Source of the DNA: Aurantibacillus circumpalustris
GTDB taxonomy: Bacteria > Bacteroidota > Bacteroidia > B-17B0 > Aurantibacillaceae
Direction of reading: 5' to 3'
Length of the DNA stretch: 64,000 nucleotides
Assembly: GCF_029625215.1 (NCBI RefSeq)
Contig: NZ_CP121197.1
Location: 1,240,001-1,304,000 of the forward strand
In this document: positions 59,301 to 64,000 of the stretch, piece by piece
Position numbering within the stretch: the stretch's first letter is position 1
How the letters are laid out: every line of letters starts with the position of its first letter
Program-made: the position numbers and the translations under genes
Notes under the pieces: model-generated
The model's database searches: none
Told to the model about the DNA's origin: nothing
Seen by the model: only the letters and a program-made list of their open reading frames with translations

Positions 59301-59668
59301 CACCCTTAAATACACACAATTTTCCCGCATTTCTTTAGCTTTTCTGCCAAAAGCCTGGTTTGTTTAGCGTGCACCGGCCAATAAGTCTTTAATAGGAGTG
59401 GCATATCGCGTCGGTCAGTAGCGCTGATATTTCGCCCTAAACCCTAAAAATTAAAAAAATAGTTCTAATTCTACTGTCCGAAATTTTGTTTTATATTTTT
59501 ATTTCGAAAGGCGTTTAAAACTAAAATTGAAGTGTATTCCCATTAACCATTCCGTCCGCTCGTGAAAATATAATCCGCAAAACCAAAAGTGCTTAATTTC
59601 AAAACGAAAAGTACAGGTTTAGTTTTTCAACCCCCAATTCTTTTAAATGGTATTTAATTACCGTTTAT

Positions 59669-60466
59669 TTACAACTTAATTGGATAGTTTGCCGTTAATA
59701 CTTCGGTCTTTATTTTTTGGCCTTTGCTACTATTATTATTTGCCACCGATACCCCGGCTTTAATTTCAAATGAATGCCATTTGTGGGCTTTTATATAGCT
59801 TTTTAAGATTGGGCTGGGATAACTACTCAAAAGAAACTTTCCTTTAATCCCTGCCAGCATTTTAAGTAGATTTTCAAAGTCTTGTAACGAATAACCATCA
59901 TAATGCGCACAATCTGAGTTAAAATACGGTGGATCGCAATAAAAAAACGCATCCTTGTTATCTCTTGAACTAATTATCCGCAAAGCATCAGTACACTCAA
60001 TCTGTACATTCTGAAGCCTAATTGCGTAATCTTCGGTAAAACTTGACCGTTTATTGCTTATTTTCTTGGTTGTTGTGTTTTTTACAATATCATATCCCCA
60101 CGAACCATCAATAATACCAGCGAAACCTTGTGAAGCTAAACACCAAACAGCCCACGCCCTTTGAATTTCGTTAAACATTTGTGGGTTGTTGTAAATAACT
60201 GAAGCTTCACGAAACGACTGACGGCTGTGCAATGTGATCCTTATGTGTTTCTCTAAACTAATAAAATCATTTTGCACAACTCTGTAAAAGTTTATCATTT
60301 CAGAATTAACATCATTAATCACTTCAACCGCTGATGGCTCTTTGGCAAAGAAGATTGCCGCGCCTCCAATAAATGGCTCACAGTAGAGTTTATGGGTAGG
60401 GATTAATTTTAAAATTGTTGCGGCTAACTTTTGTTTGCCACCGTAATAAGTGATTGGCGTTTTCAT
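59669..60466 (-). CDS. DNA adenine methylase (D12 class, Dam-like)
   Basis: 265 residues. N-terminal SAM-binding motif YYGGKQKLA (FxGxK type) and CEPFIGGAAIFFAKEP (motif I continuation). Catalytic motif DPPY is in FFYCDPPYFNSD at about 173-178, with the target-recognition region between. It transfers methyl to N6 of adenine, classically in GATC, but the site cannot be read from sequence. Together with the adjacent tail genes it is probably phage-encoded, protecting phage DNA from host restriction. No cognate restriction gene is nearby. Its 5' flank is the structured segment at 60494-60616. Confidence 0.9.
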   Translation of the reverse strand: MKTPITYYGGKQKLAATILKLIPTHKLYCEPFIGGAAIFFAKEPSAVEVINDVNSEMINFYRVVQNDFISLEKHIRITLHSRQSFREASVIYNNPQMFNEIQRAWAVWCLASQGFAGIIDGSWGYDIVKNTTTKKISNKRSSFTEDYAIRLQNVQIECTDALRIISSRDNKDAFFYCDPPYFNSDCAHYDGYSLQDFENLLKMLAGIKGKFLLSSYPSPILKSYIKAHKWHSFEIKAGVSVANNNSSKGQKIKTEVLTANYPIKL

Positions 60467-60481
60467 ATATTTTTTATTTAT

Positions 60482-60489
60482 TATCTTTG
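60482..60489 (+). promoter_or_regulatory. -7 promoter element at the edge of the structured segment
   Basis: TATCTTTG, an exact TAnnTTTG match, placed so that transcription on the plus strand would start near 60494-60497, the first base of the outer stem. No good -33 element is seen at the usual distance. Confidence 0.45.
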
Positions 60490-60493
60490 TTGC

Positions 60494-60616
60494 AGTCTCA
60501 CCTTAACGAAAAAAACGCGGAACATTCTATGAAGGCATTGGCCTCCGGTAGAACGTTCCGCGTTCGAATTTTTAGAAAAGGTGAGACTTTTCTTTTGAGC
60601 CGGAGGCCTCTTTTTA
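60494..60616 (+). ncRNA. Candidate structured non-coding RNA or attenuator in the prophage
   Basis: Outer stem AGTCTCACCTT (60494-60504) with 60578-60588 (11 bp). Inside it, AACGCGGAAC (60514-60523) pairs with 60555-60564, then one mismatch and five more pairs. The apical loop contains GGCCTCCGG (60540-60548), exactly complementary to CCGGAGGCC (60600-60608) outside the outer stem, so a pseudoknot or switch is possible. A T-run follows on the plus strand (60610-60615). On the minus strand the inner hairpin is followed by seven T and looks like a terminator between the tail genes and the methylase. Which strand is used is uncertain. A 58-codon frame from 60529 runs across it and into the antisense of the tail gene, but it is probably chance. 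Confidence 0.45.
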
Positions 60617-60631
60617 CCCCGGCATTAAAAA

Positions 60632-61357
60632 TTAGGTTACAAACCTTACTCCATCTAAGTAAACAAATACAGCATCTGTGCCACTTAAACCAAGAGGCTT
60701 AACTTCACCTGTAGTGTCTATTTGTAGGTGTATAAATGTTTTTGCACCATTAATAAGCGCAGGTGCTGCAACGGTTCTCAGCTCTTGAGGTCTGAGTGTT
60801 GTCGACAATGTGCATATTACAGTATCTGTTCCGGCACTATATGAGGCAACTGTAACTGTTCCTCTCATAATAACGTCACCAATAATATTCATTCCGGCAA
60901 GCGGTGCTGTGCCTGAAGCATTCCACGCACCATTATAAGTTAATACTGCCCAATTTTTCCAAGCACCTAGTCTTCTTGCGGTTGTCCATAAATAAGCACC
61001 ACCTCCAGTTGCTGTTGCTGCCGCTTTTCTTATAACATAAGTGTCTTCAATGTTTAAATCTTCGTATTGTTGATTTCCAGCAGGGTCATAGGTTTCTACA
61101 ATTTCCCACGCAGGGTTTCCAGAAACAGGCGTACTACCTGCATCAACTTGAAATATTTCACCTTGCATATAAAGCCAACCAGCAGTCCAACTTAGCGTAC
61201 CAGCCGCATTTGTATAAACTATTCCTGACAATATAACGTAGTCGCCCATAAACGCTTGTATAAAGGCAATAAAAGCCTCGTTTAAAGAACTTTGTAAAAA
61301 CAGAAGATCGTCTCCTGTAAAGTTGTGTCCGCCTAATTTTATGTCTAATTTTTTCAT
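60632..61357 (-). CDS. Phage tail/tail-fibre-like protein
   Basis: 241 residues. N-terminal helix-plus-turn KLDIKLGGHNFTGDDLLFLQSSLNEAFIAFIQAFMGD, then a beta-rich, Gly/Thr-rich body (GIVYTNAAGTLSWTAGWLYMQGEIFQVDAG; NWAVLTYNGAWNASGTAPLAGM). The ending DAVFVYLDGVRFVT is typical of phage tail-fibre or baseplate appendage proteins of Bacteroidota phages. I cannot name the family. It is the last gene of a minus-strand structural cluster and is followed by the structured segment. Confidence 0.65.
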   Translation of the reverse strand: MKKLDIKLGGHNFTGDDLLFLQSSLNEAFIAFIQAFMGDYVILSGIVYTNAAGTLSWTAGWLYMQGEIFQVDAGSTPVSGNPAWEIVETYDPAGNQQYEDLNIEDTYVIRKAAATATGGGAYLWTTARRLGAWKNWAVLTYNGAWNASGTAPLAGMNIIGDVIMRGTVTVASYSAGTDTVICTLSTTLRPQELRTVAAPALINGAKTFIHLQIDTTGEVKPLGLSGTDAVFVYLDGVRFVT

Positions 61358-62842: not shown

Positions 62843-63032
62843 TTGTTTTAAGTATTTCAGGTTCTTTATATTCTTGATTGTATGTTTTAAGCTTATCAAT
62901 CAAAAGCTGTTTTGTTGGAAATAAAAAAAGTTCAGGTTGACCAGTTACAACTTGCTGTCCCTCAATTAAGCCTCCATAGTGAAACACTGTTGTTTCATTT
63001 GTTGCCAAGTAATATGTGTTAAATTCCACCAT
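62826..63032 (-). CDS. Small phage protein of unknown function
   Basis: 68 residues: EFNTYYLATNETTVFHYGGLIEGQQVVTGQPELFLFPTKQLLIDKLKTYNQEYKEPEI. Mixed beta then helical, no signal or TM. It starts 14 nt inside the BspA-type gene and overlaps the next gene by 17 nt. Such overlaps are normal in phage structural operons and support a real gene. Function unknown. Confidence 0.6.
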   Translation of the reverse strand: MVEFNTYYLATNETTVFHYGGLIEGQQVVTGQPELFLFPTKQLLIDKLKTYNQEYKEPEILKTNGTNT

Positions 63033-64000
63033 CAGTTATAGTCCAATTATTTGGCGCGCCGGTTAATATTGCTTTTCCTGCCGAACCGCCAGCTGTGTAT
63101 TTAATTGTGTTGAAGTTTATATTTACGTTTGGTTGTAATGTCAATGCAGACCATGTATTATAAATTAAATCTAGATTAGCAGCTGAAAAACCAGCAGCAG
63201 ATTTTCCTAGCATAAACTCTGTGAATGAAGTAACATTTGAAACGTCCCAAGAACTTATATCTTGATCTATTCCACAATAAGCAAACATATATGCCATAGT
63301 GGTTACACTTGAAACATCCCAACCACCAATATTTTTATTAAAAGACTGACAATTATAAAACATGTATCTCATATCAGTCACATTTGAAACATCCCAAGCT
63401 GTGATATCTCCATTAAAAACTATTGCAGACTCAAACAGCTCAAGCATATTGGTTACGTTTGAAACGTTCCAAGAATTTAAATTTTGATTAAATGATTGAG
63501 CGTTATAAAAAAGTAAACTCATGTTTGTCACGCTTGAAACATTCCAAGTGTTTAATGGCTGATTAAACGAAAGGCAACTACAAAGCATAGCAGACATATT
63601 AGTAACGCTTGAAACGTCCCATGTACCAATGTTTTTATTGAAGGATACAGCGGAATAAAACATAAAACTCATATTTGTTACGCTTGAAACATCCCATGCA
63701 CCAATATTTTGATTAAATGATTGGCAGTAATATAGCATGTAGCTCATGTTTGTTACGCTTGAAACGTTCCAACTACCAATATTTTTATTAAAAGATTGAG
63801 CTCCATAAAACATATAGCTCATGTCTGTAACGCTTGAAACGTTCCATAAGCTAATATTTCCATTAAAGGCAACTGCACCATAGAAAACATATCTCATGTC
63901 TGATACGTTTGAAACATCCCAAGTGCTTATATCTCCATTAAAAGATGTAGCAGATTCAAATATCTCCAACATAACAGTTACATTTGAAGTATTCCATGAA
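63019..64000 (-). CDS. BspA-type leucine-rich-like repeat protein (DUF285), 5' part beyond window
   Basis: At least 327 residues. The visible N-terminal Met (63972) is internal, because the repeats continue to the window edge. Eleven copies of a 25-residue repeat are visible, each with a core like W-N/D-V-S-S-V-T-N-M and FxxAxxFNxNI, giving a 75-bp DNA period. Family: Mycoplasma/BspA-type DUF285 repeats, seen in surface and phage-associated proteins. A non-repeated C-terminus (AANLDLIYNTWSAL...GAPNNWTITDGGI) ends the protein. In this phage context it is probably a receptor-binding or tail-tip adhesin, which fits rapid repeat-number change. Confidence 0.85.
   Translation of the reverse strand, partial: SWNTSNVTVMLEIFESATSFNGDISTWDVSNVSDMRYVFYGAVAFNGNISLWNVSSVTDMSYMFYGAQSFNKNIGSWNVSSVTNMSYMLYYCQSFNQNIGAWDVSSVTNMSFMFYSAVSFNKNIGTWDVSSVTNMSAMLCSCLSFNQPLNTWNVSSVTNMSLLFYNAQSFNQNLNSWNVSNVTNMLELFESAIVFNGDITAWDVSNVTDMRYMFYNCQSFNKNIGGWDVSSVTTMAYMFAYCGIDQDISSWDVSNVTSFTEFMLGKSAAGFSAANLDLIYNTWSALTLQPNVNINFNTIKYTAGGSAGKAILTGAPNNWTITDGGI
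63203..64000 (-). repeat. 75-bp tandem repeats inside the BspA-type gene
   Basis: Near-identical units (for example around 63754-63764 and 63829-63839, exactly 75 bp apart) encode the 25-residue repeat. The high nucleotide identity allows unequal recombination and copy-number variation. This is not a CRISPR array: the units are contiguous and in frame. Confidence 0.85.

Follow-up and report, generated by a model that had tools for sequence, protein, structure and literature searches.

A predicted structured RNA family encoded head-on to DNA-modification cassettes in temperate Bacteroidota phages

Comparison of phage sequences revealed a family of folded elements in temperate Bacteroidota phages, which appear to be selected as plus-strand RNA, possess a host-type promoter box of their own and lie head-on before modification cassettes. 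In the window (the whole 64,000-nucleotide stretch of Aurantibacillus circumpalustris DNA that was analyzed), positions 60494–60615 of the plus strand are predicted to constitute a gene for such a structured noncoding RNA of approximately 120 nt. The reading favoured here, to which a probability of roughly 40% can be given, is that this head-on, antisense RNA delays expression of the modification cassette to the late stage of infection.

Predicted RNA element and prophage of the window

The element is preceded by the box TATCTTTG (60482–60489, +), an instance of TAnnTTTG, which we take to be the Bacteroidota-type −7 promoter motif and which recurs upstream of the relatives. The start of the RNA gene (60494–60615, +) was placed from this −7 box and its end from the run TTTTT (60611–60615, +); model R1, of which the element is a seed, gave it 67.7 bits. 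The outer stem P1 (11 bp) is formed by AGTCTCACCTT at 60494–60504 (+) and its partner at 60578–60588 (+), and the inner hairpin P2 by 60514–60530 (+) and 60548–60564 (+), with 10 bp, an A-C mismatch and then approximately 5 bp in the window. From the P2 loop, GGCCTCCGG (60540–60548, +) forms a 9-bp Watson-Crick pseudoknot helix with CCGGAGGCC (60600–60608, +). All three helices are supported by covariation. The two stems (the inner one as 10+5 bp), the loop-to-outside pairing and the box had been pointed out in an earlier note on this DNA, and each could be located in the sequence. The fold lies far beyond chance, with folding energy z-scores of −7.2 (+) and −9.1 (−), and none of 200 shuffles was as good on either strand.

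An additional helix, P3, which crosses P1 and goes beyond the elements described earlier, could also be recognized. In the window it is a 7-bp run overlapping the P1 3' strand, of which only 60574–60577 (+), paired with 60590–60593 (+), is free of P1. Its run length varied from 3 to 8 bp among 33 members, part of which also overlap P1; because P3 covers inner P1 positions in some members, the two helices may partly compete, as alternatives rather than coexisting. The 5' to 3' order in the family is promoter box, P1 5' strand, A-rich linker, P2 with its apical loop, P3 5' strand, P1 3' strand, P3 3' strand, pseudoknot partner and T-run. Seven A at 60509–60515 of the window read as seven T behind the P2 hairpin on the minus strand. 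The element is single-copy in the genome, and a DNA-level repeat or MITE was rejected, with one genome copy besides its own palindrome.

The element lies, as the earlier note had placed it, between a prophage methylase and tail genes. A D12-class N6-adenine DNA methyltransferase gene (59669–60466, −), the last gene of the prophage, runs divergently from the RNA, and the last tail-region gene of the late operon (60632–61357, −; weak minor-tail match, E 0.0005) runs convergently with it, the RNA being antisense within the late operon. No separate promoter for the modification gene could be seen by eye in the window.

The prophage contains genes for a transposase (phrog_310), a DNA transposition protein (phrog_296), a repressor, a terminase, a sheath and a tape-measure protein, and the first two products can be read as putative MuA and MuB. 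A repeat at 59598–59615 (+), possibly a transposase site, is shared in inverted orientation with the other prophage end (20 of 22 letters, as the best of many comparisons made with no chance control), and similar inverted repeat copies lie near the methylase and near recA, which was named from its sequence. Based on the transposase, the transposition protein, the phage genes and the end repeats, the prophage is classified, by sequence, as Mu-like, and the methylase occupies its right end. The tail region also includes a gene of DUF285 repeats (63019–63999), the product of which is a possible receptor-binding protein.

Members of the family and the phages that carry them

A total of 153 members, 140 of them distinct, were gathered from phage contigs and from genomes, the latter nearly always of Bacteroidota. 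A methylase search of viral contigs yielded 64 loci, and by descriptor scan, examination of upstream stretches and R1 the RNA was found in 19 of them (L014, L015, L021, L033, L034, L036, L037, L038, L042, L051, L052, L057, L058, L063, L065, L068, L069, L071, and L076). L051 equals L052 in sequence, the L076 copy lies approximately 0.9 kb upstream, L021 and L034 were recovered by the descriptor alone, and L069 was weak by R1 (E 0.14). The same three approaches did not find the RNA in the other 45 of the 64 loci, and the methylase therefore does not need it. Among 80 methylase-selected genome loci, R1 matched 20 (L160 weakly, at E 0.13), and apart from L163 their titles are all of Bacteroidota. 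The L163 match (1879–2007, 73.3 bits) lies beside a methylase on a 3-kb contig of a MAG labelled Spirochaetia, which may represent a binning error or spread beyond Bacteroidota.

Further members were brought in by a conserved loop pattern, and two RNA-only patterns combining the promoter box and the P1 core returned 127 loci, of which 6 with weak P2 and pseudoknot were dropped as chance and 121 were kept. These two patterns fix TCTCAC/GTGAGA and the promoter box, both of which are therefore invariant in the RNA-only loci by selection. A search of 79 of the 113 distinct RNA-only loci matched 50 at E ≤ 5e-7 and left 29 unmatched. Two copies of the RNA, approximately 0.7 kb apart, occur in L144 (3045–3173 and 3834–3958). 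A survey of 392 genomes of the phylum with R1 returned the window's own copy alone; approximately 9 candidates were scored per genome, and the survey is for this reason taken as insensitive. A single 22-nt DNA match was obtained in 59 relative genomes, the window element produced short matches alone (E ≥ 2) in INPHARED, and the last tail gene was unsuccessful as a route to relatives.

Transposase phrog_310 was present in 22 of the 40 RNA-bearing contigs given from the 121 kept loci. The remaining 18 comprised 12 with a tyrosine integrase and 6 with neither, and an exclusive tie to Mu-like phages was accordingly rejected. In hankyphage jmh43_hp (PV107405) of Bacteroides thetaiotaomicron, the RNA lies between avd and an 80-aa gene, which are followed by ThyA and a methyltransferase; it received 45.7 bits with P2 misplaced in the model alignment, the helix being plain by eye. 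The host strain of this phage has been cultured and engineered (PMC12135933). In Winogradskyella phage Peternella_1 the RNA precedes a methyltransferase (36.3 bits, poor T-run), and no RNA match was obtained in the 3.8 kb searched of Bacteroides phage BF1-TP2, which has a related methylase.

Known RNA families did not account for the element. No small RNA family of Bacteroidota had come to mind for it in the earlier note, and in agreement with that, Rfam 15 revealed only tRNA in the whole window, and at E ≤ 5 the best match to the window element was L20_leader with 18.3 bits against a threshold of 58.7. In 34 further member loci (16 + 18), Rfam 15 matched only tRNA, c4-2 and RT-3, none at the element. 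The c4-2 antisense RNA (RF02944) was found at threshold in L063 (8577–8663), on a contig that also has the new RNA. RT-3 RNA (RF03068) lies approximately 2 kb from the new RNA in L207, L213 and L303, where it is probably tied to a diversity-generating retroelement. The two RNAs thus share three phage contigs, together with a reverse transcriptase, but RT-3 occupies another place and belongs to another family, which the new RNA does not match. No description of the new RNA was found in the open-licence PMC literature.

Covariation, strand of selection and transcript ends

Covariation was evaluated in a 50-sequence alignment that included 12 R1 seeds and 29 sequences from the RNA-only patterns with their fixed P1 core. 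Paired cells amounted to 92.6% compared to 71.1 ± 0.7% in shuffles, and changes on both sides were seen in 29 of 34 pairs compared to 20.5. The earlier note had set a lack of compensatory changes in homologues as grounds for refutation; such changes are present, with both sides altered in 325 cells, against 90.5 ± 7.2 for shuffles. The signal was lost once partners were slid by 1–3 columns. P1 and P2 were fitted to R1, and since the pseudoknot is absent from the R1 structure, its covariation is independent of the fitting. For the pseudoknot alone, 53 doubly changed cells were counted against 12.3, a value reached by none of 500 shuffles; further pair types were the weakest measure (15 vs 12.8; 21 of 500 shuffles). 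Complementarity of the pseudoknot strand was 17.5 with its own partner, 11.7 with swapped partners (standard deviation of 20 shuffles, 0.2) and 12.2 with its own reversed tail; the corresponding values for P3 were 13.9, 9.1 (0.2), and 10.1 when reversed. The pseudoknot, which had been proposed as possible, therefore recurs with compensatory changes in many phages.

An A-C apposition on one strand corresponds to G-U on the other, and only the strand that functions as RNA retains G-U pairs. To count them, Watson-Crick seeds were extended through G-U or A-C alike, leaving out 6 of the 39 early members because their automatically assigned helices were wrong (L021, L034, L051, L069, L142, and L143). 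The G-U to A-C ratio was 77:5 in the pseudoknot and 32:1 in P3 (together 109:6), 41:21 in P1, and 31:52 in P2, which is opposite in direction to the other three. As G-U far exceeds A-C in P3 and the pseudoknot, these appear to be selected as plus-strand RNA, and the functional strand is taken to be the plus strand, with P2 carrying an opposite signal. In the P2 A-C cells of 131 members, A stood on the 5' side in 49 of 52, most frequently near the loop, a one-sidedness that pairing on neither strand accounts for. Wherever both senses matched, R1 scored the plus sense, on which it was built, above the reverse. P1 was misplaced in MAFFT alignments A1 and A3–A8, which were left out of the counts, and 4 antisense matches were left out of alignment A13 by the cut-off.

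The promoter box could be found within 30 nt upstream of 31 of 33 R1 matches in the methylase-selected loci, where the upstream stretch is free of selection because R1 starts at P1. Among non-seed matches it was present in 25 of 27, with approximately 0.015 expected for each. This test rests on R1 matches, as the descriptor-scan listing, in which weak pseudoknots are shown only with the box present, was unsuitable. A T-run of at least 5 T in 8 nt occurs in all 131 members where one was found, this being the criterion itself, and 9 of 140 have no detected T-run. A local hairpin before the T-run is rare (6 of 131 below −6 kcal/mol in the last 24 nt); the stem ending at the T-run is instead the long-range pseudoknot, and transcription may be predicted to terminate at the T-run that it precedes. 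The promoter box and the strand bias agree with the earlier suggestion of a short plus-strand RNA ending at a T-run. At least 5 A in the 9 nt ahead of P2, which appear as T on the opposite strand, were counted in 101 of 131 members.

Gene neighbourhood and possible mode of action

Neighbouring genes were called by a simple open-frame rule. Across the 113 distinct RNA-only loci, 96 have a nearest 5'-side gene that points against the RNA; of the others, 5 lack a gene in the first 250 nt, 4 have one in the same orientation and 8 run into a contig edge. The 3' side gave 96 of 113 as well, with 6 lacking a gene, 5 in the same orientation and 6 at an edge. The RNA is thus encoded opposite to the neighbouring transcript on each side, as in an antisense regulator, with L021, L034 and L143 as exceptions. 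These three loci, all missed by R1, have the RNA at their outer end, on the far side of the methylase, where it cannot be antisense to the methylase leader. The distance from the promoter box to the start codon of the next late gene had a median of 24 nt, and 77 of 96 starts on the 5' side fell at 0–45 nt.

Among the 103 RNA-only loci with an opposite-running 5' gene, cluster analysis assigned at least one of the first four genes on that side to a modification type in 83; L281 and L301 add two N6/N4 DNA methylases, giving 85 of 103, and none was recognized in the other 18. On the 3' side, there was no modification-type gene among the first six genes of the RNA-only loci. Clusters were named from representatives by Pfam; the clade-2 methylase representative fell short of D12, which its cluster mate L110 reached. 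ABC/GNAT, formyltransferase and thymidylate-synthase-like genes were counted as presumed modification genes. Pfam analysis of 95 neighbours identified D12 in 36, thymidylate synthase in 18, ABC in 8, Mom in 7, C5 methylase in 3 and N6/N4 methylase in 2, and 43 neighbours matched the DNA methyltransferase family phrog_56 of PHROGs. An exclusive tie to D12 methylases was rejected, as two methylase HMMs matched in 58 of 121 RNA-only loci. An 80-aa helix-turn-helix protein, often encoded by the first gene, adjoins the RNA in 22 distinct RNA-only loci (for example L334, 3210–3452); one representative had weak similarity to Mor (E 0.024), and the protein is a candidate late activator. A short thymidylate-synthase-like protein of approximately 212 aa is encoded in the modification cassette in 30 of 121 RNA-only loci (for example L334, 3525–4169).

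Under the favoured cis silencing, the host polymerase would make the RNA in the lysogen. Transcription from the opposite direction, and pairing of the antisense RNA with whatever mRNA reads through, would then silence the cassette, and this block would give way once late transcription becomes strong. The fold would stabilise the RNA and set its 3' end, and the RNA would achieve what phage Mu does to mom through C and Com. The conserved pseudoknot counts against cis silencing, since simple antisense pairing would not require it, and it hints at a partner that binds the RNA.

Because the fold is conserved and the enzymes are unrelated, a role in trans stays close behind. The folded RNA could bind a protein of either host or phage (a counter-defence or immunity RNA would be one example), and its association with the cassette would then arise because both protect phage DNA. 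Such a molecule would suit the fold kept despite sequence divergence, the strand-specific G-U bias in P3 and the pseudoknot, the RNA's own promoter box, the neighbour genes from unrelated families and the occurrence with MuA-like transposase phages and tyrosine integrase phages alike; however, it would need no fixed position and orientation beside the cassette. Rather doubtful is the wider proposal of a new class of phage RNA, in which the folded form, not the antisense sequence, would act in trans with DNA modification or host takeover across Bacteroidota and transcription would end at an intrinsic terminator made by the pseudoknot.

An account in which the element only separates late genes from the cassette, as an insulator or a terminator working in both directions, and its transcript has no role of its own, could explain the T-run behind the pseudoknot (found by that criterion in 131 members, with none in 9 of 140) as well as the A-rich tract before P2. 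It is nevertheless an unlikely reading, as P3 and the pseudoknot are kept beyond what a terminator needs and with a bias to one strand, and the promoter box is retained.

For the minus strand, the earlier note had read the inner hairpin as a terminator just upstream of the methylase gene and its alternative pairings as a switch controlling that gene. The terminator part is consistent with P2 and its seven T, the A-rich tract and the excess of A-C over G-U in P2. The switch is not supported as the main reading because the RNA adjoins unrelated genes (D12, C5, N6/N4, Mom, and thymidylate-synthase-like) and because three loci place it on the far side of the methylase. An attenuator or riboswitch in the leader of the methylase mRNA is quite improbable also in view of the G-U bias of P3 and the pseudoknot, which points to the plus strand, as do the higher plus-sense scores of R1, a model built on that sense. 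Least credible is a DNA element such as a cruciform, transposition-end or packaging site, which would fit the element's position in hankyphage and in the Mu-like prophage of the window, close to the right end in both, but DNA pairing cannot produce the G-U to A-C asymmetry and the element is also found in tyrosine integrase phages.

Among known systems, cis silencing of the cassette can be compared with com-mom of phage Mu, a right-end modification gene after the late genes whose expression is held back with involvement of RNA structure (PMC6483171). The prophage of the window is likewise transposable and has its modification gene at the right end, behind the late genes, and Mom-family genes adjoin the RNA in 7 of the 95 scanned neighbours; however, the window gene is D12 and not Mom. 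In Mu, moreover, the target of the zinc-finger protein Com is the mom mRNA itself, whereas here a separate RNA lies on the opposite strand; this and the other details of mom control, including C and Com, are general background. CopA, RNAI and RNA-OUT are cis-antisense RNAs, likewise short, stable and opposite the leader of the gene they control (a would-be control here), and to our knowledge they lack both a conserved double pseudoknot and a T-run preceded by a pseudoknot. Type III toxin-antitoxin RNAs such as ToxI are also pseudoknotted and lie beside one gene, but they occur as tandem repeats ahead of, and on one strand with, the gene for a ToxN-like nuclease, whereas the present RNA is single-copy, on the opposite strand and next to a methylase rather than a toxin nuclease. 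The RNA thus fits no described family among those tested, and in function it could resemble an antisense regulator and fulfil the same purpose as mom control in Mu. Its novelty would lie in the RNA family and its architecture, and the mode of action may prove to be a known one.

Members of this widespread RNA family share a defined fold and, within a major bacterial phylum, occur in transposable phages as well as in phages with an integrase. If confirmed, a pseudoknot right before the T-run would widen what intrinsic terminators can be. The timing of phage DNA modification has been worked out mainly in phage Mu, and the tie of the RNA to unrelated DNA-modification genes suggests a general means of such timing.
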